From the NCBI RefSeq assembly GCF_024746835.1, contig NZ_CP080531.1, positions 5,848,001-5,912,000 on the forward strand: a stretch of DNA of 64,000 nucleotides, written 5' to 3'. The position numbers and the translations under genes were made by a program. The stretch comes from Mesorhizobium sp. AR02 (GTDB lineage Bacteria; Pseudomonadota; Alphaproteobacteria; Rhizobiales; Rhizobiaceae). Every line of letters begins with the position of its first letter. The stretch's first letter is position 1. Shown piece after piece: positions 25,129 to 49,880 of this stretch. The notes under the pieces were generated by a model. The model saw only the letters and a program-made list of their open reading frames with translations. It had not been told where the DNA came from and searched no databases.

Positions 25129-25229
25129 GCTGGACCCCTATGATGCGCAATGTCCCTATCTGTTCACAGATCAGGCTTGATGGTTCGAATATCAAATTAA
25201 ATTTCGCCCATGTTGGGATTGAGGCAGGA

Positions 25230-26135
25230 ATGCAAACCCGGAATTACCTACTTTACGATGTGTTTACGACCGAGCGACTGGCCGGCAACCCGCTGGCGGT
25301 GGTGTTGGATTGCAAAGGTCTGGACACGGCCGCGATGCAGGCCATTGCGCGCGAATTCAACCTGTCCGAATCGGTCTTTGTGCTGCCGCCGGACAATCCC
25401 AAGCATAAAAACCGCATCCGCATCTTCACGCCCGACTATGAAATGCCCTTCGCCGGCCACCCGACAGTGGGTTCGGCAATCGCGCTGGCCGAACTGGCGG
25501 AAGAGGGCGCCGGCATTTTCGTGCTGGAAGAAAACATCGGTCCGGTGCGCTGCGCGGTCAGCAAACACGACGGCGCCACCTTCGCCGAGTTCGACCTGGC
25601 GAAATTGCCGGAACCGTTGAAGCTGGAGGCCGATCCGCAGGCGATTGGTGCTGCCCTTGGCCTGGCGCCACATGAGATCGGTTTCGAGAATCACCGTGTC
25701 GCCTTCTGGTCGGCGGGCGTGCCCTATGTGACCATTCCGGTCGCCAATCTCGAAGCGGCGGGCCGCATCCGGCTGGACAACCAGGCGTGGTCGGAACTGG
25801 CGCCGCGCAAGAGCGAATGGGCCTTCGCCAGCCCCTATGTCTATTGCCGCGAGACGGTGAACCACGAAAGCGCCTTCCATGTCCGCATGATCGTGCCCGG
25901 CACGCCTTCCTATGAAGACCCGGCAACTGGTTCTGCAGCGGCCGCCTTCGCTGGCGCCATCTTGCTTTTCGACGGCCCGACGGATGGCATTTCACAGCTG
26001 TGGATCGAGCAGGGGCTGGAGATGGGCCGGCCGTCGCGCATCCGCCTGGAACTGACCGTGCAAGGCGGAAAACTGGCCTCGGCGCGCATTGGCGGCCATG
26101 CGGTCAAGGTGGCGGAAGGCAAGCTATTCGTCTGA
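25230..26135 (+). CDS. PhzF-family isomerase-like protein
   Basis: This 301-residue protein has the two-domain PhzF/DapF fold pattern: NYLLYDVFTTERLAGNPLAV at the N-terminus, the catalytic-type Glu in FNLSESVFVL (about residue 46), PFAGHPTVGSA and the closing DPATGSAAAAFAG. PhzF catalyses an isomerisation in phenazine synthesis, but most bacterial relatives have unknown substrates, and no phenazine genes are nearby. I took the ATG at 25230, with GAGG upstream, over the earlier ATG at 25140. Confidence 0.88.
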   Translation: MQTRNYLLYDVFTTERLAGNPLAVVLDCKGLDTAAMQAIAREFNLSESVFVLPPDNPKHKNRIRIFTPDYEMPFAGHPTVGSAIALAELAEEGAGIFVLEENIGPVRCAVSKHDGATFAEFDLAKLPEPLKLEADPQAIGAALGLAPHEIGFENHRVAFWSAGVPYVTIPVANLEAAGRIRLDNQAWSELAPRKSEWAFASPYVYCRETVNHESAFHVRMIVPGTPSYEDPATGSAAAAFAGAILLFDGPTDGISQLWIEQGLEMGRPSRIRLELTVQGGKLASARIGGHAVKVAEGKLFV

Positions 26136-26241: not shown

Positions 26242-26317
<76 letters not shown>

Positions 26318-26486
26318 AATTCCTAGAAGACTTGGTGGAAAGACCCTGAAAGCGAGACGCGTCGACGCGTCCCCGGCATTTGTCGATTGCTGTGCGCTAC
26401 CGTGTGGGCGCCCCGCATCCTCTTGACAATCGGGTTTGCAAGCCATCACAGAACTGCATGATTTTCGGCTGAATTAAAAGGCAATC

Positions 26487-27485
26487 ATGGCCGACCCAAA
26501 AAGCGTTTTCGTTTCCTATTCTTGGGACAGCGAAGATCACAAGGTGTGGGTGAGAACCCTAGCTGAACGACTAGTTTCGAATGGCGTTCACGCCTACCTC
26601 GATGACTGGGATGTTCAGTACGGCGAAAGCCTTACGCAATTTATGGAAGAAAAGCTTCCTACCGCAGATTTTGTATTCATCGTCTGCACCCCGCAGTACG
26701 CAACCAAGTCAACGGCGAGGAAAGGGGGTGTCGGATATGAAGCACAAATCATTTCATCTCACATCGCGGCGTCTATCGAGCGGTCGAAATTTGTACCGAT
26801 CCTTCGGACCGGCAAACTAGCTCCAGATGATCCAGATTGTGCCATGCCCCCGCATTTTCGTGGGATCAGGGCAATCGATATGCGCGCTGATGATCAGTTC
26901 GACACGATGTTCGAGAACCTATTGAGACACGTGTACGGGAAGCCGGCTCTGACCCGGCCGAGCCTTGGTAAGCCACCCTCATATGTACTAGGACATATCG
27001 AAAGCTTGCCGATGATCGACCTTGTCCGACTCGCCAATTTCGAAATCGAACATTGGGAATTGCAGAGCGGCGTAGTCCGCAATGAACTGCATCCCGAGAC
27101 CTTTGAGATACCGAGCGAGGCAACGCGCAGATCGCTCGCTGTGGACGATGTCGTCAAGTTGATGTTTGAATACCGTTATCCGGAGGGCTTTGACGAAGAC
27201 ATCGTCCCTGGCGGTGAGCGGATGTGGGTAAAAATTGTCGGCTTGAATGGCCCATATTTTATCGGGCGATTGAACAACTCGCCCGTCTGCACCGCTGATT
27301 GGCATGATCTAGACTATGATAGCCAAGTGGTTTTCCTTCCAGAGCACGTCATCGACTTTGACAAGGGCGGTAAAGATTCCGCCGTCGCCATAGCGGCGCA
27401 TGAGAAAGCGGACCGCAAGAAATCGACCAAAAAGCATACCGAGGTCGAGCGTCGAACTGGAAATAGGACTCGAGTGAAGAAGTAA
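26487..27485 (+). CDS. SEFIR (TIR-like) domain protein with a DUF2314-like C-terminus
   Basis: This 332-residue protein begins with a SEFIR domain: VFVSYSWDSEDHKVWVRTLA at residues 8-27, AYLDDWD, then FVFIVCTPQYATKS and GGVGYEAQII, whose Glu is in the position of the catalytic residue of TIR NADases. The middle (about 155-220) is unassigned. Residues 223-290 resemble DUF2314: VDDVVKLMFEY, GERMWVKIVG, IGRLNNSPVC and LDYDSQVVFLPEHVIDF. The tail is Lys-rich. Base use looks less GC-rich than in the neighbours. It lies alone, just after tRNA-Lys. SEFIR proteins can act in phage defence by NAD depletion, so a role in abortive infection is plausible but unproven. I found no repeat of the tRNA end downstream. 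Confidence 0.8.
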   Translation: MADPKSVFVSYSWDSEDHKVWVRTLAERLVSNGVHAYLDDWDVQYGESLTQFMEEKLPTADFVFIVCTPQYATKSTARKGGVGYEAQIISSHIAASIERSKFVPILRTGKLAPDDPDCAMPPHFRGIRAIDMRADDQFDTMFENLLRHVYGKPALTRPSLGKPPSYVLGHIESLPMIDLVRLANFEIEHWELQSGVVRNELHPETFEIPSEATRRSLAVDDVVKLMFEYRYPEGFDEDIVPGGERMWVKIVGLNGPYFIGRLNNSPVCTADWHDLDYDSQVVFLPEHVIDFDKGGKDSAVAIAAHEKADRKKSTKKHTEVERRTGNRTRVKK

Positions 27486-27536
27486 CTGCGAGCGTCCCCT
27501 GCCGTGTGAACATGCCCGGAACCGCTAACTGCGGAC

Positions 27537-28547
27537 CTACTTCTCCGAGACCCCTGCCTCGGCAAAGCTCGCCATCCTTGCATGGCACTCCAGTGCCGAG
27601 CGGACGATGTTGACGGCGAGGCAGGCGCCGGAGCCTTCGCCGAGCCGCATGCCGAGATCGAGCAGCGGCGGCAGGTCGAGCGCTTCGAGCAGGCCGCGAT
27701 GACCCGATTCGGCCGAGACATGGGCCGCGATGGTGTGGGCGAGGCCGGTCGGGTGCAGCCTGGCCAGTGGGGCGGCGGCGGCAGTGCAGACGAAGCCGTC
27801 GAGCAGCACGGGTATGCCGAGATGGCGGGCGGCAAGCGTGGCGCCGAAGATGGCGGCGAGTTCGCGGCCGCCGAGTGAAGCGGCAACGCCGAGCGGATCG
27901 GTGAGGGCGGCGGCGTGGCGCTTGAGGCCGGCTTCGATGGCGACCACCTTGCGCTTGAGACCGGCATCGTCGACGCCGGTGCCGCGCCCGGTCCATTTTT
28001 CCGCGCCACCGCCAAACAGCGCCGCCGAAATGGCGGCCGCCGGCGTGGTGTTGCCGATGCCCATCTCGCCGAAGCAGATCAGGTCGAGGTCTTTCGTCAC
28101 CGCGTCATAGCCTGCGGAGACGGCGGCGAGAAACGCCGTCTCGTCCATTGCCGGCACTTGCGTGAAGTCACCGGTAGGATGGTCGAGGTCGAGCGGGATG
28201 ACATCGAGTTCGGCGCCGGCGATGCGGGCGAGCTGGTTGATGGCGGCGCCGCCGCCGGCGAAATTCGCCACCATCTGCACGGTGACCTCGGAGGGGAAAG
28301 CCGACACGCCCTGCGCGGTGACGCCGTGGTTGCCGGCGAAGACGAACACCTTCACCCGGTCGAGTTTCGGCATATCGCGGCCCTGCCAGCGCGCCAGCCA
28401 TGCAGCGATGGTCTCCAGTCGGCCGAGGCTGCCTTGCGGCTTGGTCAGCGTGTCCTGGCGGCGGGCAACGGCCTTTGCGGCCGTATCGCTGCCGGTGGGC
28501 AGGTCAAGGCAGGCGGCGCGCAGTTCATCGAGGGATTTGAAGGGCAT
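27537..28547 (-). CDS. cobT: Nicotinate-nucleotide:dimethylbenzimidazole phosphoribosyltransferase
   Basis: This 336-residue enzyme makes alpha-ribazole phosphate from dimethylbenzimidazole and nicotinate mononucleotide, preparing the lower ligand of cobalamin. Family landmarks are KPQGSLGRLE (residues 34-43), FAGNHGVTAQGVSAFPSEVT, GEMGIGNTTPAAA and the C-terminal LDLGMRLGEGSGA, which bears the active-site Glu. In Pseudomonas denitrificans naming it is CobU. It is the last gene of the minus-strand cobalamin cluster and is followed, convergently, by the SEFIR gene. Confidence 0.97.
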   Translation of the reverse strand: MPFKSLDELRAACLDLPTGSDTAAKAVARRQDTLTKPQGSLGRLETIAAWLARWQGRDMPKLDRVKVFVFAGNHGVTAQGVSAFPSEVTVQMVANFAGGGAAINQLARIAGAELDVIPLDLDHPTGDFTQVPAMDETAFLAAVSAGYDAVTKDLDLICFGEMGIGNTTPAAAISAALFGGGAEKWTGRGTGVDDAGLKRKVVAIEAGLKRHAAALTDPLGVAASLGGRELAAIFGATLAARHLGIPVLLDGFVCTAAAAPLARLHPTGLAHTIAAHVSAESGHRGLLEALDLPPLLDLGMRLGEGSGACLAVNIVRSALECHARMASFAEAGVSEK

Positions 28548-43834: not shown

Positions 43835-45034
43835 TTACGACACGGCGATGTCGGCCAGCGCCGGACCCAGATCACCGACCGGCGTTACTTCGATGCGTTC
43901 AAGACCAAGCCAGCCCTGCATCTGCTTAAGTTCCTCGAAGAGTTGCGCCGCTGTTTCAGGCGGTGCGCCGGGCTCGGGGTAGGCCGCGTGCACGCGCAGG
44001 ACGCTCGCTGGTCGGTCGGCCTTGAGATCGACGCGTGCGACGATCCTGTCGCCGAGCAGGAAGGGCAGGACGTAATAGCCGTACTGCCGCTTCTCGGCCG
44101 GGGTGTAGATTTCGATGCGGTAGTGGAAGTCGAACAGCCGCTCCGAGCGCGAGCGTTCGAAGACGACCGGATCGAACGGTGCCAGCAAGGCGCGCGCCTC
44201 GATTTTTCGGGGCAAGCGCGCGTCCTTATGGAGGTAAGCCGGCTTGTCCCAGCCCTCGACCCGCACCGGCACCAACTCGCCGGCCTCGACCAGTTCCTCC
44301 AACCGCCCCTTCATGTCGGCCGGCGACAGCCGAAAGTAGTCGCGCAGGTCGCCCGATGTCGCGATGCCATGGGCGCGGGCGGAGATGCGCAGCAATTCGC
44401 GGTGCGCGTCCCCGGCTGATGGCACCGGCAGATCGAGGATCGCCTGCGGCAGCACGCGTCCCGGCAGGTCGTAGAAGCGCTCGAAGCCGCGGCGATGTGC
44501 CGTGGTGATGCGCCCGGCCCAGAACAGCCATTCGAAGGCGTGCTTGGCATGGCTCCAGCCCCACCAGCCGCCCGAACCCTTCTGGCCTTCCAGCGCGGAA
44601 GCAGCGATCGGGCCGCGCGCGACGACCTCGCGGTAGATCTCTTCTATATAGGCGGCATGCTCGCGGCCCCATTTGGCCAGCCCCAGATACATCTCGTCGC
44701 CTTGCTCGGCGCGCTGCATGCGCCAACGCATCAGCGGATAGGTCTCGACCGGCAGGAACGAGGCCTCGTGCGCCCAGTATTCGAAGACCGTGCGCTTGCG
44801 CGTCACGGCGGCGTTGTCGAGCAGAGCGAGCGGGTAGGGCCCCAGGCGCGAATAAGGCGGCATATAGTGAGCGCGCACCACCGCGCTGACGGAATCGATC
44901 TGCAGCAGGCCGGTGCGGGAGAGCACGCGGGCGAAGTGGCGGCGGTCGGGTGTGCCATTTGGACGGGGATCGAGAAATCCTTGAGCAGCGAGTGCTATGC
45001 GCCGAGCCATGGCAAGGGAGATCTTTTCCTTCAT
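43835..45034 (-). CDS. YcaQ-like winged-helix DNA glycosylase
   Basis: This 399-residue protein belongs to the HTH_42/YcaQ family, with LARRIAL-like MARRIALAAQGF at the start, the family's QxD signature in LLQIDSV (about residue 46) and FEYWAHEASFLPVE downstream. YcaQ/AlkX enzymes unhook interstrand crosslinks and remove N-alkyl bulky lesions; AZL (streptomycete) relatives give self-resistance to azinomycin. I therefore infer DNA repair of crosslinks. It is divergent from nuoA and ends only 33 bases before the riboswitch, whose promoter may overlap its 3' end. Confidence 0.85.
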   Translation of the reverse strand: MKEKISLAMARRIALAAQGFLDPRPNGTPDRRHFARVLSRTGLLQIDSVSAVVRAHYMPPYSRLGPYPLALLDNAAVTRKRTVFEYWAHEASFLPVETYPLMRWRMQRAEQGDEMYLGLAKWGREHAAYIEEIYREVVARGPIAASALEGQKGSGGWWGWSHAKHAFEWLFWAGRITTAHRRGFERFYDLPGRVLPQAILDLPVPSAGDAHRELLRISARAHGIATSGDLRDYFRLSPADMKGRLEELVEAGELVPVRVEGWDKPAYLHKDARLPRKIEARALLAPFDPVVFERSRSERLFDFHYRIEIYTPAEKRQYGYYVLPFLLGDRIVARVDLKADRPASVLRVHAAYPEPGAPPETAAQLFEELKQMQGWLGLERIEVTPVGDLGPALADIAVS

Positions 45035-45367
45035 TCGGTGTCACTCTGAGGGTGATGGGATCGGCGGTTTGATGGGTGATTCCAGGCCATGCTAGCAGGG
45101 TTTTGGCGGCAACCCTGTCAGGAGAGAAAAGTGGAGTAAAAAGCGAAGGAAATCAAACAGGAGCGGATCGGACCAGTTTCTTCGGATATGCCGTCCAGCA
45201 CTGCGTTTTGAACAAGGTTTGACTTGCTTCGCTGGAAGTGCTGCGCTAACCCTCGCCGCGTTGCAGCATAGGCCCCTTAAAACGGTTCAGCGGTTAATCT
45301 GTCACGCTTCCGCATTAAGGTCCGGTGCTGTAATCAAAGTGGATTGGCGCCAACGGAAAACCGCTGC
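45035..45367. other. Divergent intergenic region upstream of nuoA
   Basis: These 333 bases separate the divergent YcaQ-like and nuoA genes, so they must carry both promoters. A hairpin CAGGGTT / AACCCTG lies at 45096-45117. A TTGACT at 45219-45224 could be a -35 box, but no convincing -10 follows at 17 bases. I see no coding sequence. Confidence 0.6.
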
Positions 45368-45733
45368 ATGAACGCACTCCTCAGTTCGTACCTGCCCATC
45401 GTCCTGTTCATTGGCGTGGCGCTGGTCGTCGGCCTGGCGCTGCTGGCCGCACCGTTCCTGGTGGCCTATCGCAATCCCGATCCTGAAAAGCTTTCCGCCT
45501 ACGAGTGCGGTTTCAACTCGTTCGACGACGCCCGCATGAAATTCGACATCCGCTTCTACCTGGTGTCGATCCTGTTCATCATCTTCGACCTGGAAGTGGC
45601 CTTCCTGTTTCCGTGGGCCGTATCCTTCTCGAAGATCGGCATGCTCGGCTTCTGGTCGATGATGGTGTTTTTGGCAGTGCTGACCATCGGCTTTGCCTAT
45701 GAATGGAAAAAAGGAGCGCTGGAATGGGATTGA
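45368..45733 (+). CDS. nuoA: NADH-quinone oxidoreductase subunit A
   Basis: This 121-residue membrane subunit of complex I has three hydrophobic segments and the conserved loop [27 protein letters not shown], which holds the switch cysteine (residue about 47) near the quinone cavity. The ATG at 45368 fits the family N-terminus better than the upstream start at 45344. Its last 10 bases overlap the start of nuoB. It is the first gene of a nuoA-N operon in the standard order. Confidence 0.97.
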
Positions 45734-46305
45734 ACGACAGTTCAGGCACCCTCGTCGCGCCGAAGCCGAAGGGCATCATCGATCCCAACACCGGCAGGCC
45801 GGTGGGGGAGGACGATCCCTTCTTCCTCGAAATCAACAATGAGCTTGCCGACAAGGGTTTTCTGGTCACCTCGACCGAGGCGCTGATCACCTGGGCGCGC
45901 AGCGGCTCGCTGATGTTCATGACCTTCGGTCTTGCGTGCTGCGCGGTCGAGATGATCCACACCTCGATGCCGCGCTATGACTCGGAGCGCTTCGGCGTCG
46001 CGCCGCGCGCGTCTCCGCGCCAGTCCGACATCATGATCGTCGCCGGCACGCTGACCAACAAGATGGCGCCGGCGCTGCGCAAGGTCTACGACCAGATGCC
46101 GGAGCCGCGCTACGTCATCTCGATGGGCTCGTGCGCCAATGGCGGCGGCTATTACCACTATTCCTATTCGGTGGTGCGCGGCTGCGACCGCATCGTGCCG
46201 GTCGACATCTACGTGCCCGGCTGCCCGCCGAGCGCCGAAGCCCTGCTCTACGGCATTCTTCTCCTGCAGAAGAAAATCCGCCGCACCGGCACGATCGAAC
46301 GGTAA
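45724..46305 (+). CDS. nuoB: NADH-quinone oxidoreductase subunit B
   Basis: This 193-residue peripheral-arm subunit carries the terminal N2 [4Fe-4S] cluster. Ligands are visible in GLACCAVEM (tandem cysteines), [13 protein letters not shown] and [14 protein letters not shown]. The N-terminal extension before DPFFLEIN is longer than in E. coli, as is usual in alphaproteobacteria. It starts inside the end of nuoA. Confidence 0.98.
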
Positions 46306-46309
46306 ATCC

Positions 46310-46912
46310 ATGGCCGCATCCCTTAGCGAACTGTCGACCTATCTCGGCGAGAAGCTGATCGGCCGTGTCACTGACGCGGCGATCGCCTATGGCGAGCTCA
46401 CCGTTCATGTCGAACCACGCGACCTCATCGAAGTGGTGACCTTCCTGCGCGACGATGCGCGCTGCCAGTTCATCTCGATCATCGATGTCTGCGGCGCCGA
46501 TTATCCGTCGCGCGCCAAGCGCTTCGACGTCGTTTATCACCTGCTTTCGCCGAAACAGAATGTGCGCATCCGCGTCAAGGTGCAGGCCGACGAAGAGACG
46601 ATGGTGCCGTCGATCACCGGCGTTTTCCCGGGTGCCGACTGGTTCGAGCGCGAGACCTACGATCTCTATGGCGTGCTGTTCTCGGGCCATCCGGACCTGC
46701 GCCGCCTGCTGACCGATTACGGCTTCGAAGGCCATCCGCTGCGCAAGGATTTCCCGCTGACCGGCTTCGTTGAAGTGCGCTACGACGACGAAGCCAAGCG
46801 CGTCATCTACGAGCCGGTGGAATTGAAGCAGGAATTCAGGAACTTCGACTTTTTGAGCCCGTGGGAGGGAACTGATTACGTTCTTCCCGGGGACGAAAAA
46901 GCGAAACAGTGA
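46310..46912 (+). CDS. nuoC: NADH-quinone oxidoreductase subunit C
   Basis: This 200-residue peripheral subunit (30-kDa type) has the family signature [20 protein letters not shown] at about residues 116-135 and ends with [15 protein letters not shown]. It is separate from NuoD, as in alphaproteobacteria and mitochondria. Its stop codon falls at the edge of an inserted element that separates it from nuoD. Confidence 0.98.
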
Positions 46913-47380
46913 GTAGGGAAGTAGTGAGCAGTCAGTAGGGAAAGAGTTGGAGCAACGGATCGAATCTTATCGCGACTTGAAGGTGTGGCAGTCGGCGATG
47001 ACGCTCGCTGAAGATTGTTATCGTTTCACCAAAGAGTTTCCGAGGGATGAGATTTACGGCATGACCTCTCAGATGCGCCGATCGGCGGTTTCGATCGCGG
47101 CGAACATCGCAGAAGGATACGGTCGGGAAAACAGAGGGTCGTTCATTCAGTTTTTGCGCATGGCGCAAGGATCGTTGAAGGAACTGGAAACGCACGTACT
47201 GCTGGCATGCCGGGTTGGGCTGTTACGAAAAGACAATGAGATTGAACTGCTGCTGCGATGGGAAGAGATTGGAAAAATGATGAGATCTCTTATCCGAACG
47301 GTGCAGGCAAAGCAGGCGGAATGAAGCAGGCATTGAGATTGATGATCACTACTCACTACTCACTACTGACTCTTCGCCAG
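46907..47380 (+). mobile_element. Inserted unit with a four-helix-bundle gene between nuoC and nuoD
   Basis: The gene at 46947-47324 is flanked on the left by AGTGAGTAG/AGTAGTGAGCAGTCAGTAG repeats (46908-46938) and on the right by the same words in inverted form, CACTACTCACTACTCACTAC (47347-47366). The element interrupts an otherwise tightly packed operon and its right part ends about 30 bases before nuoD. Boundaries are approximate; no transposase is present. Confidence 0.75.
46947..47324 (+). CDS. Four-helix-bundle protein (23S rRNA intervening-sequence type)
   Basis: This 125-residue all-helical protein matches the S23/four-helix-bundle family: YRDLKVWQSAMTLAEDCYRF, PRDEIYGMTSQMRRSAVSIAANIAEGYGR and FLRMAQGSLKELETHVLLA. 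Relatives are encoded by intervening sequences in 23S rRNA genes and by scattered small elements; their function is unknown. The start is TTG at 46947, since no ATG precedes the family motif. It lies within the nuo operon, flanked by inverted short repeats, so it is probably mobile and cotranscribed with nuo. Confidence 0.88.
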   Translation: MEQRIESYRDLKVWQSAMTLAEDCYRFTKEFPRDEIYGMTSQMRRSAVSIAANIAEGYGRENRGSFIQFLRMAQGSLKELETHVLLACRVGLLRKDNEIELLLRWEEIGKMMRSLIRTVQAKQAE

Positions 47381-47390
47381 AGGCGCCACA

Positions 47391-48581
47391 ATGGCTGAAA
47401 CCTCCGTCCGCAATTTCAACATCAATTTCGGGCCGCAACACCCTGCGGCGCATGGCGTTTTGCGTCTCGTGCTGGAGCTGGACGGTGAAGTCGTCGATCG
47501 CGTCGATCCGCATATCGGACTTTTGCATCGCGGCACCGAAAAGCTGATCGAGGCAAAAACCTATCTGCAGGCGGTGCCTTATCTCGACCGGCTCGACTAT
47601 TGCGCGCCGATGAACCAGGAGCATGCCTTTGCGCTCGCCGCCGAGCGCCTGCTCGGTATCGAGGTACCAAGACGCGGCCAGTTGATCCGCGTGCTTTATT
47701 GCGAGATCGGCCGCATCATGTCGCACATCCTCAATGTGACGACGCAGGCGATGGACGTCGGTGCGCTGACGCCGCCGCTGTGGGGCTTCGTCGAACGCGA
47801 AAAGCTGATGGTGTTCTATGAGCGGGCTTCCGGCTCGCGCATGCACGCCGCCTATTTCCGCCCCGGCGGCGTCCACCAGGACCTGCCGCGCCAACTGGTT
47901 GAAGACATCGGCAAGTGGATCGACCCGTTCCTGAAGTCGATCGATGACCTCGATCGTCTGCTGACCGGCAACCGTATCTTCAAGCAGCGCAATGTCGATA
48001 TCGGCATTGTTTCGCTGGCCGATGCCTGGGCCTGGGGTTTTTCGGGTGTCATGGTGCGCGGCTCGGGCGCGGCCTGGGACCTGCGCAAGTCGCAGCCCTA
48101 TGAATGCTATTCGGAAATGGACTTCGACATTCCGATCGGCAAGAACGGCGATTGCTACGACCGTTATCTCGTGCGCATGGAAGAAATGCGCCAGTCGGCG
48201 CGGATCATGCGCCAGTGCGTCGATTTGCTGCTCGGCAAAGAAAGCACCGGTCCGGTGTCGAACCTCGACGGCAAGGTCGTGCCGCCGAAGCGCCAGGCAA
48301 TGAAGCGCTCGATGGAAGCGCTGATCCATCACTTCAAGCTCTACACCGAGGGCTATCGCGTGCCGGCCGGCGAGGTCTACGCCGCCGTGGAGGCGCCGAA
48401 GGGCGAGTTCGGCGTCTATCTCGTCTCCGACGGCTCCAACAAGCCCTACCGCTGCAAGCTGCGCGCGCCCGGTTTCGCACATCTACAAGCCATGGATTTC
48501 CTTTGCCGTGGCCACATGCTGGCCGACGTCACCGCCGTTCTCGGCTCCCTCGACATCGTGTTTGGTGAGGTCGATCGCTAA
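47391..48581 (+). CDS. nuoD: NADH-quinone oxidoreductase subunit D
   Basis: This 396-residue peripheral subunit (49-kDa type) builds the quinone-binding cavity with NuoB. Conserved elements are [22 protein letters not shown] with the cavity histidine, [25 protein letters not shown] and [21 protein letters not shown]. The stop codon TAA is directly followed by the nuoE ATG. Confidence 0.98.
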
Positions 48582-49880
48582 ATGTCAGTCCGCCGTCTCG
48601 CAGAAGCAAGCGTCCAGCCAGCATCCTTCGCCTTCAACCGGGCGAACGCGGCAGCGGCGAAGCAATGGATCAAGAAATACCCGAAGGGCCGCGAGCAGTC
48701 GGCGATCATTCCGTTGTTGATGATCGCGCAGGAGCAGGAAGGCTGGGTCACCAAGGCGGCGATCGAGACGATTTCCGACATGCTTGGCATGCCCCGAATT
48801 CGCGGGCTCGAGGTCGCGACGTTCTACACGCAGTATCAGCTCAATCCCGTTGGTACCCGCGCGCACATCCAGGTTTGTGGCACCACGCCCTGTATGCTGC
48901 GCGGCTCGGAAGCGCTGATGGATGTCTGCCGTTCAAAGATTCATCACGACCAGTTCCACACCAACGACAAGGGCACCTTGTCGTGGGAAGAGGTCGAATG
49001 CCTTGGCGCCTGCGTCAACGCACCGATGGTGATGGTTTTCAAGGATACGTTCGAGGATCTGACGCCGGAACGGCTGGCTGAGATCATCGATCTCTATGAC
49101 GCGGGCAAGGGTGCCTCGGTGGCGCCGGGACCGCAGAACGGCCGTACCGGCTCGGAGCCGGCCTCCGGCCTGACGACGCTGAAGAGCGAAAAGGCGATCC
49201 TCAAGTCGACCCGTGACAGGGAGGCCAGGGAAGCAGCCAAGGCCGCTAAGGAAGCGGCGGCAACCGCTTCGGCCGCGCCCGCGCCGGTTGCTCCCGCAGC
49301 GCAGGCCCCGGCTGCCGCTCCTGTCGCGCCGTCCAATGCCGGCAAGCCGAAGACCGACGCGCCTGAAACCAGCCCGGCCTTGAAGACGCCTTCGGCAACC
49401 AAGGTGGCGCCGGCGGCGGAGAAGGCGGCGAGCGTTTCGGCACCACCGCATTCGGCCGCCAACGCCAACACGGCAGCGCCGGAAGTCGAGAAGGTCTCCA
49501 AGCAGCGCAATGGGCCGACGGCCAAGGCCGAACCGGCCGCCGCATTCAAGGCGCCGGAAACCAAGACGCCAGCCGCAAAGCCGGCGAAACCGTCGCTGGA
49601 GGACAAGAACCGTCCGGCCGGTATCGACAGGCCGGCCACGGTCGACGATCTCAAGCTGATCTCCGGCGTCGGCCCGAAGATCGAGGGCATCCTGCACACG
49701 CTGGGCATTTTCACCTTCGCGCAGGTCGCTTCCTGGAAGAAGGCCGAACGCGAGTGGGTGGACGGCTATCTCAGCTTCCACGGCCGCATCGACCGCGACG
49801 ACTGGGTTAAGCAGGCCAAGGCGCTCGCCAAGGGCGGCGTCGCCGAATACATCCGCGTTTTCGGCAAGAAGCCGGTCTGA
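48582..49880 (+). CDS. nuoE: NADH-quinone oxidoreductase subunit E with long C-terminal extension
   Basis: The first 200 residues form the 24-kDa thioredoxin-like subunit with its [2Fe-2S] N1a ligands in [10 protein letters not shown] and [12 protein letters not shown]. An Ala/Pro/Lys-rich linker of about 130 residues follows. The last 70 residues ([19 protein letters not shown], then [21 protein letters not shown]) form a helix-hairpin-helix-like domain that also closes the extra gene at 51259-51954. E. coli NuoE has only 166 residues; extended forms are seen in related rhizobia. Confidence 0.96.

Follow-up and report, generated by a model that had tools for sequence, protein, structure and literature searches.

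Introduction

The gene analyzed here is closest to bSEFIR, a single-gene defence that was reportedly described by Millman et al. in 2022. According to a passage of one paper (PMC12774641), SEFIR is an NAD+-cleaving effector; an excerpt of another has a SEFIR system protecting S. thermophilus narrowly, against specific phages (PMC12322248), and a table in a third places SEFIR escape mutations under structural phage proteins (PMC10286901).

The second domain at issue, DUF2314, was said in the initial annotation of the locus to have no known role. This statement has to be qualified, since DUF2314 is Imm34 of polymorphic toxin systems, outlined in a section of PMC3482391 as mostly beta, with an ExxW motif and a C-terminal D, and since two of its members bind RNA-decay enzymes (PMC13232886, PMC8466066). 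The fusions given in that section are to Imm-SuFu, Imm33, ankyrin repeats and TM helices, and Imm34 (DUF2314) is also listed there in polyimmunity loci. In E. coli, RNase E is bound directly by the DUF2314 protein YegJ, and cells that overproduce YegJ suffer membrane damage and growth arrest, as stated in an excerpt of PMC13232886. PA2504, a Pseudomonas protein with the architecture DUF2314-DUF2185, emerged as an isolated RppH partner; the same portion of that source gives a Tudor-like model for it and crosslinks to S4, TufA and GacA (PMC8466066).

Among the matches listed from the open-licence literature, no overlap of DUF2314 with SEFIR was found, and nothing was found there for the term bSEFIR, for Imm34 with TIR, or for TIR domain with Tudor and phage defense.

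Results

A lone gene of low GC content behind tRNA-Lys

The gene lies in a window of 64 kb, by which we mean the whole stretch of DNA that was analyzed. The features around it are as follows:

25140..26135, + strand: left flank gene of the hotspot, an ORF with flank matches in the genus, which from its sequence we take to be PhzF-like
26242..26317, + strand: tRNA-Lys, anticodon CTT (Rfam tRNA, 69.7 bits), the left anchor of the insertion hotspot in the genus
26360..27536, no strand: insert of this genome, ~1.2 kb with approximate ends, from alignment with the intervals of five relatives
26487..27485, + strand: SEFIR gene with a DUF2314-like tail, an intact ATG ORF of 332 aa with homologs
27537..28547, − strand: right flank gene of the hotspot, an ORF with flank matches in the genus, presumably CobT-like judging from its sequence

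The insert is bounded on the left by the sequence that close relatives share after tRNA-Lys, and on the right by the 3′ end of the neighboring gene. Its sole long coding-strand frame is the SEFIR/DUF2314-like fusion. The original description of a stand-alone gene just after a tRNA gene, less GC-rich than its surroundings, held up: the ORF starts 169 bp after the end of tRNA-Lys(CTT), and its GC content is 51.9% (GC3 0.578), as against 63.5% for the window and 0.609–0.691 (GC3 0.734–0.916) for eight genes nearby.

No flanking repeat was found around the insert, either in the alignment of relatives or by a repeat search, which returned one 18-nt pair (78%) with its second copy within the right-hand gene. 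No sigma-70-like promoter was found. An RNA element ahead of the gene was considered and rejected, since the 169-nt leader folded no better than shuffled sequences (z +1.33); besides the tRNA itself, Rfam returned a single antisense match, which was below threshold. Elsewhere in the window, the GC content dips to 0.567–0.613 per kb at 45001–49000, between stretches of ~0.64–0.67.

The N-terminal half is a SEFIR domain that matches part of bSEFIR

Two features were located in the N-terminal half:

26502..26936, + strand: SEFIR/TIR domain, ~residues 6–150 (Pfam; PDB 5y8e; PADLOC bSEFIR, residues 1–183)
26739..26741, + strand: putative catalytic glutamate, Glu85 of GGVGYE, unchanged across all 86 alignment rows, the window protein among them

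The SEFIR (TIR-like) assignment was borne out by Pfam, by a solved structure and by PADLOC. Both PF08357 (4.2e-13) and TIR_2 (1.6e-18, the best Pfam match) scored above their cut-offs, and the solved SEFIR domain 5y8e matched at 8.7e-25. The catalytic role proposed for Glu85 follows from the analogy with TIR NADases.

The match of the PADLOC bSEFIR model (PDLC03957) to the window protein (2.2e-65) was confined to model positions 35–203 of 412. Six other fusion proteins likewise stopped at positions 198–250 of the model, whereas in three canonical bSEFIR proteins, from a Pseudomonas luteola plasmid, a Klebsiella phage (Peduoviridae) and the relative G018, the match extended to 384–385. BLASTP against the canonical proteins of the P. 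luteola plasmid and of G018 (proteins of L075 and L056) gave a meaningful alignment over the first 167 residues and noise over the rest. In a quick tree of the SEFIR domain, one branch (SH-aLRT 94, not starred, with long-branch warnings) tentatively set 31 fusion rows apart from three canonical rows and one Enterococcus row, the C-terminus of the last being unchecked.

The window protein resembles bSEFIR in being the product of a single gene and in having an N-terminal SEFIR domain with Glu in GGVG-E, but its C-terminal half is a different one that falls outside the match to the bSEFIR model. Because the match is N-terminal only, we regard the protein as a SEFIR effector whose C-terminal half differs, rather than as a full-model bSEFIR; it looks like a variant of SEFIR defence with a different sensor. 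The initial annotation knew of no description of the pairing as a system; defence databases do cover part of the protein, since PADLOC matches its N-terminal half to bSEFIR, and it is the C-terminal half that goes unlabelled.

The C-terminal half is DUF2314-like

Three features make up the remainder of the protein:

27030..27356, + strand: DUF2314 (Imm34)-like domain, ~residues 182–290 (Pfam matches of the family; profile comparison)
27216..27227, + strand: ERMW (ExxW motif), residues 244–247, invariant in 86 of 86 rows
27357..27482, + strand: variable, lysine-rich tail, residues 291–332, unconserved in the alignment

PF10077, the DUF2314 family, gave no match to the window protein at E ≤ 10. 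When the related genomes were searched with PF10077, other DUF2314 genes appeared in 18 of 41; this genome has two of them, and the fusion gene was not among the genes matched. Other family proteins do match PF10077: in one alignment of 32 members, 12 were reached at E ≤ 1 (best 1.1e-4), the window protein not being one of the 12. A query with residues 172–300 returned 94 proteins, 14 of them with a precomputed PF10077 match, starting at E 5e-12. An hhalign comparison of the C-terminal domain with those 14 proteins gave 99.9% and E 8e-35, and one with 18 DUF2314 sequences of related genomes gave 85.9% and E 5e-6, each being a single comparison; as a negative control, the SEFIR half gave 0.1% and 1.4% against the two sets. 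No solved relative of the C-terminal domain was found by sequence search.

The DUF2314-like C-terminus of the initial annotation is therefore upheld through the family, by its Pfam matches and the profile comparison, and not through the window protein itself. “DUF2314-like” is the proper wording, since PF10077 misses the window protein yet is met by family members and profiles. Judged by these comparisons, the C-terminal domain is a divergent DUF2314 (Imm34) relative of an ERMWV subgroup. It has the ExxW motif, a G-L-N-P core and the C-terminal D in common with DUF2314/Imm34 proteins such as YegJ and PA2504, but differs from them in missing PF10077, in its ERMWV signature and in being joined to SEFIR.

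The pairing is conserved in a broad but thinly spread family

A database search yielded 383 family proteins, and motifs were counted in the 120 that were listed, the window protein included. The SEFIR GG-G-E motif was present in 117 of the 120 and both C-terminal motifs in 115, showing that the pairing of SEFIR with the DUF2314-like domain is conserved across the family; a recent fusion peculiar to this strain is ruled out by the same 115 proteins. In an alignment of 86 rows, Glu85, E244, R245, M246, W247, P256 and Y257 were invariant. More than 70 residues follow the LPEH motif in 13 of 115 relatives. Two family members, P0100 and P0147, have an added GIY-YIG domain at the C-terminus.

When species genomes were scanned, 15 loci turned up, distributed over the Alpha-, Beta- and Gammaproteobacteria and the Acidobacteria (classes judged by titles), while an even sample of 398 phylum genomes gave a match at E ≤ 1e-60 in this genome only; the family is broad but thinly spread. 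The fusion protein matched 150 of 72,556 plasmid records and 7 of 50,697 phage records. As none of the matches in those records covered more than 80% of the protein, plasmids and phages were rejected as carriers of the entire fusion. No fusion relatives were found among 27 pattern stretches from viral contigs.

The gene occupies an insertion hotspot

The DNA flanking the insert was matched at least partly in all 61 genus genomes searched. In 55 of these, the distance from the end of the tRNA to the right-hand gene ranged from 121 bp to 68.8 kb, as compared to 1219 bp here; the count leaves out this genome, three with the flanks on different contigs (G006, G012, G017), one with only the right flank listed (G024) and one split by contig ends (G061). 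In G066, the tRNA piece is reported on the opposite strand. The contents were read in 20 intervals. Those of G036 and G003 are nearly empty, that of G079 has a DUF2806 gene, and those of G027 and G083 hold large inserts with 47–50 bp copies of the 3′ part of the tRNA near the far end. The place after tRNA-Lys is an insertion hotspot.

The G022 interval has a second tRNA-Lys, and the right-hand gene has left partial copies of its 3′ end inside the intervals of G022 and G015; the positions concerned are L045:309-384 and 1312-1386 in G022 and L048:3966-4139 in G015. These are traces of successive insertions. The same hotspot in G081 holds a lone TIR-DUF3298 gene (L043:494-1681, GC 0.45), a candidate single-gene defence. 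Like the window gene, it is a single low-GC TIR gene in this interval, but both its TIR domain and its C-terminal domain are different ones. Two further lower-GC hotspot genes, in G009 (L040:325-1065, − strand, 246 aa) and G035 (L046:488-1870, + strand, 460 aa), had no Pfam match at E ≤ 0.01.

The fusion was present in two of 146 genus genomes, at different places: the second copy, in G020, is 64% identical and lies on a contig other than that of G020’s own tRNA-Lys interval. A third match in the genus, in G018, is a canonical bSEFIR. A vertically inherited gene beside the tRNA is ruled out by the variable interval together with the presence of the fusion in two genomes only, and the window gene, patchy in its occurrence, has probably been transferred horizontally. 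Of the two outcomes that the initial annotation had set against its own reading, a failure to detect the domains and uniform vertical inheritance next to this tRNA with no link to defence genes, neither was seen: both halves of the protein are detectable, the gene is rare in the genus and sits at a hotspot of varying content, and some distant homologs adjoin defence genes.

Defence genes adjoin some distant homologs

The survey took in the 133 ORFs that lie no more than 6 kb from any of 14 homolog loci (L057–L070); the ORFs were called mechanically and some are antisense. One partial match (L071) was left out; L055 and L057 denote a single place. At E ≤ 1e-30, PADLOC models matched 49 families, and among the 25 listed were HamA, HamB, DpdF, PsyrT, RT (2) and PDC-S31 (2). 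The PADLOC tallies give families by member number, the best 25 of 138 and the best 25 of 49, and not ORFs matched; HamA, DpdF, PsyrT and PDC-S31 stand in the pooled tally only, without an assigned locus. The Pfam tally of the same neighbors was mostly ordinary metabolism. When neighbors were scanned one by one, 5 of 20 (three of ten and two of ten) matched defence models and 15 matched none.

Defence-type neighbors could be placed in five of the 14 loci (L062, L064, L067, L068 and L070). In Rugamonas rubra (L062), HamB adjoins the homolog. In L067, there is an LmuB-like ATPase (8e-43) with MC5 (ABC-3C) on one side of the homolog and an LmuA-like/trypsin-like gene (2e-13) on the other; the gene run at L067:4259-9667 comprises a gene without a solved relative, MC5, the LmuB-like gene, the fusion and the LmuA/trypsin-like gene. 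The match in L068 is to the mad3 model, which was also matched by the control, one 64-kb window, where this generic model gave the only match among 54 other ORFs at E ≤ 1e-30. The survey of defence islands that had been proposed thus came out divided: defence genes stand beside some distant homologs, whereas the window copy has no defence neighbor among the 54 other window ORFs apart from the mad3 match.

In L064 (Paraburkholderia kururiensis) and L070 (Burkholderia stagnalis), an RT gene is found 63 bp upstream of the SEFIR/DUF2314-like gene. The two loci share a 4.1-kb block that is 98.8% identical (L064:7127-11247 and L070:7127-11248), with different left flanks, and because of this block they are not independent and count as one event. 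The block may be a mobile two-gene cassette. Ahead of its RT gene, the block also carries two direct repeats of 147 bp; a diversity-generating retroelement was rejected, because the repeats differ by four mismatches and one gap that are clustered and not spread across adenines. No Rfam match was found within the block. The closest solved relatives of this RT are Cas6-RT-Cas1 and group II intron-like RTs, and it may be non-defensive. The association of RT with a TIR-class domain recalls the retron RT-TIR (type XII in PADLOC), and there is a weak RT-TIR_XII match (1.6e-17), but here the two are separate genes and the RT is nearer to the Cas6-RT-Cas1 and group II-like enzymes.

DUF2314-like genes occur in large phages

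At E ≤ 0.01, the C-terminal domain matched 14 of 50,697 phage records, representing ten phages, with DUF2314-like genes at the following positions:

L072:2986-3336
L077:2609-2827
L080:2531-2833
L079:2477-2770
L103:2480-2770
L078:2081-2776
L102:2072-2767
L073:2980-3309
L081:2450-2779
L104:2480-3271

In three Microbacterium phages, the genes are small and lie within tRNA arrays. Two Brevundimonas phages have a small gene ~410 bp past tRNA-Arg, and two Caulobacter phages a longer one (231 aa), one gene away from a tRNA-His guanylyltransferase; the matches in these two groups, both Dolichocephalovirinae, are weak, with E values of 7e-4 to 6e-3. Three Stenotrophomonas phages have the gene near DNA polymerase with no tRNA in the stretch, and in one of them, DLP_5, the domain is within a 263-aa protein. 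The only further viral relatives found in viral contigs, L105 and L106, are in stretches without a tRNA, and two more scans found none. Since the Brevundimonas and Caulobacter phages belong to the same subfamily, the link to tRNA holds for three of four host groups or two of three phage groups. It is anecdotal, the numbers being too low for statistics, and small genes may simply accumulate in phage regions rich in tRNA.

Discussion

The protein has two domains, a conserved glutamate and a pairing that is conserved across its family; it is inherited patchily, at a hotspot, and some of its homologs have defence genes as neighbors. We consider it probable, at about 0.6, that the gene came by horizontal transfer and that its product acts alone in abortive infection, with NAD+ cleavage triggered via the DUF2314-like part. 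At rest, this part, which is Imm34 and modelled elsewhere as Tudor-like, would hold the protein inactive. Upon phage infection, it would encounter its trigger, which would be a protein of the phage or else a host RNA or translation factor that has been disturbed; this contact would cause the SEFIR domains to assemble. Glu85 would assist the cleavage of NAD+ in the assembled SEFIR, and the loss of NAD+ would halt metabolism and prevent the phage burst. NAD+ cleavage, assembly, trigger and protection are what we infer for the window protein. For the effector step, by analogy, the infected cell is most likely halted or killed by NAD+ loss, a step that follows from homology; the sensor step and the identity of the sensor are our own proposal.

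Several other explanations were weighed. Self-immunity of the Imm34 type, in which the DUF2314-like part would mainly inhibit or stabilize a toxic SEFIR and the role would be in conflict between bacteria, would fit the presence of Imm34 in polyimmunity loci, as listed in the section of PMC3482391 cited above, and of other DUF2314 genes in related genomes and in this one; we consider it unlikely, as defence systems flank some of the homologs. About equally unlikely is that the protein is a subunit of a larger system, normally needing a partner such as an RT or an ABC-3C/Lamassu-like ATPase, and that the window copy is an orphan. The RT gene of the shared block and the LmuB-like ATPase and LmuA/trypsin-like gene on either side of the L067 homolog suggest such a system, but partners of this sort were seen in only three of the 14 loci and differ between them, and the window frame is intact with its conserved residues.

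It is very unlikely that SEFIR acts as a signal-making TIR of the Thoeris kind, with a messenger made from NAD+ that acts on a separate effector. TIR_2 is the best Pfam match of the window protein, which also matched ThsB (0.007) and ThcB4 (0.004) weakly, the latter far below the cut-off. However, the 1.2-kb insert holds no other gene, and there is no constant partner, because no family exceeds three of the 133 neighbors of the 14 homologs; Thoeris models gave no match to the 54 window ORFs at E ≤ 1e-30, a strict limit applied to one window. Least likely of all is an accessory gene without a role in defence: the fusion is rare, in two of 146 genus genomes and one of the 398 of the phylum sample, but Glu85 and ERMW are invariant in every row of the alignment although the loci span several bacterial classes, and some homologs have defence neighbors.

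Within the preferred reading of a triggered abortive-infection protein, the DUF2314-like part might be an integrated sensor of host RNA-decay or tRNA machinery, whose disturbance by phage would lead the fused SEFIR to destroy NAD+. We regard this version as quite unlikely. A sensor that watches RNA metabolism is hinted at because phage DUF2314-like genes are often near tRNA-related genes and because DUF2314 proteins bind RNase E and RppH. The domain would copy that of the cellular DUF2314 proteins that bind these enzymes, and large phages, which encode the domain too, would perhaps act with it on the RNA-decay or tRNA machinery. If true, bacteria would possess in this sensor an equivalent of the integrated-decoy immune receptors of plants, and the DUF2314-like proteins of phages could serve as triggers or as antagonists.

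SEFIR defence is known, and its triggers are little understood. A sizeable SEFIR subfamily that goes under the bSEFIR label bears a different, conserved C-terminal domain related to DUF2314. The fusion could reveal whether the C-terminal half sets the trigger of SEFIR, and it could give DUF2314, which is found in bacteria and large phages, a functional setting.
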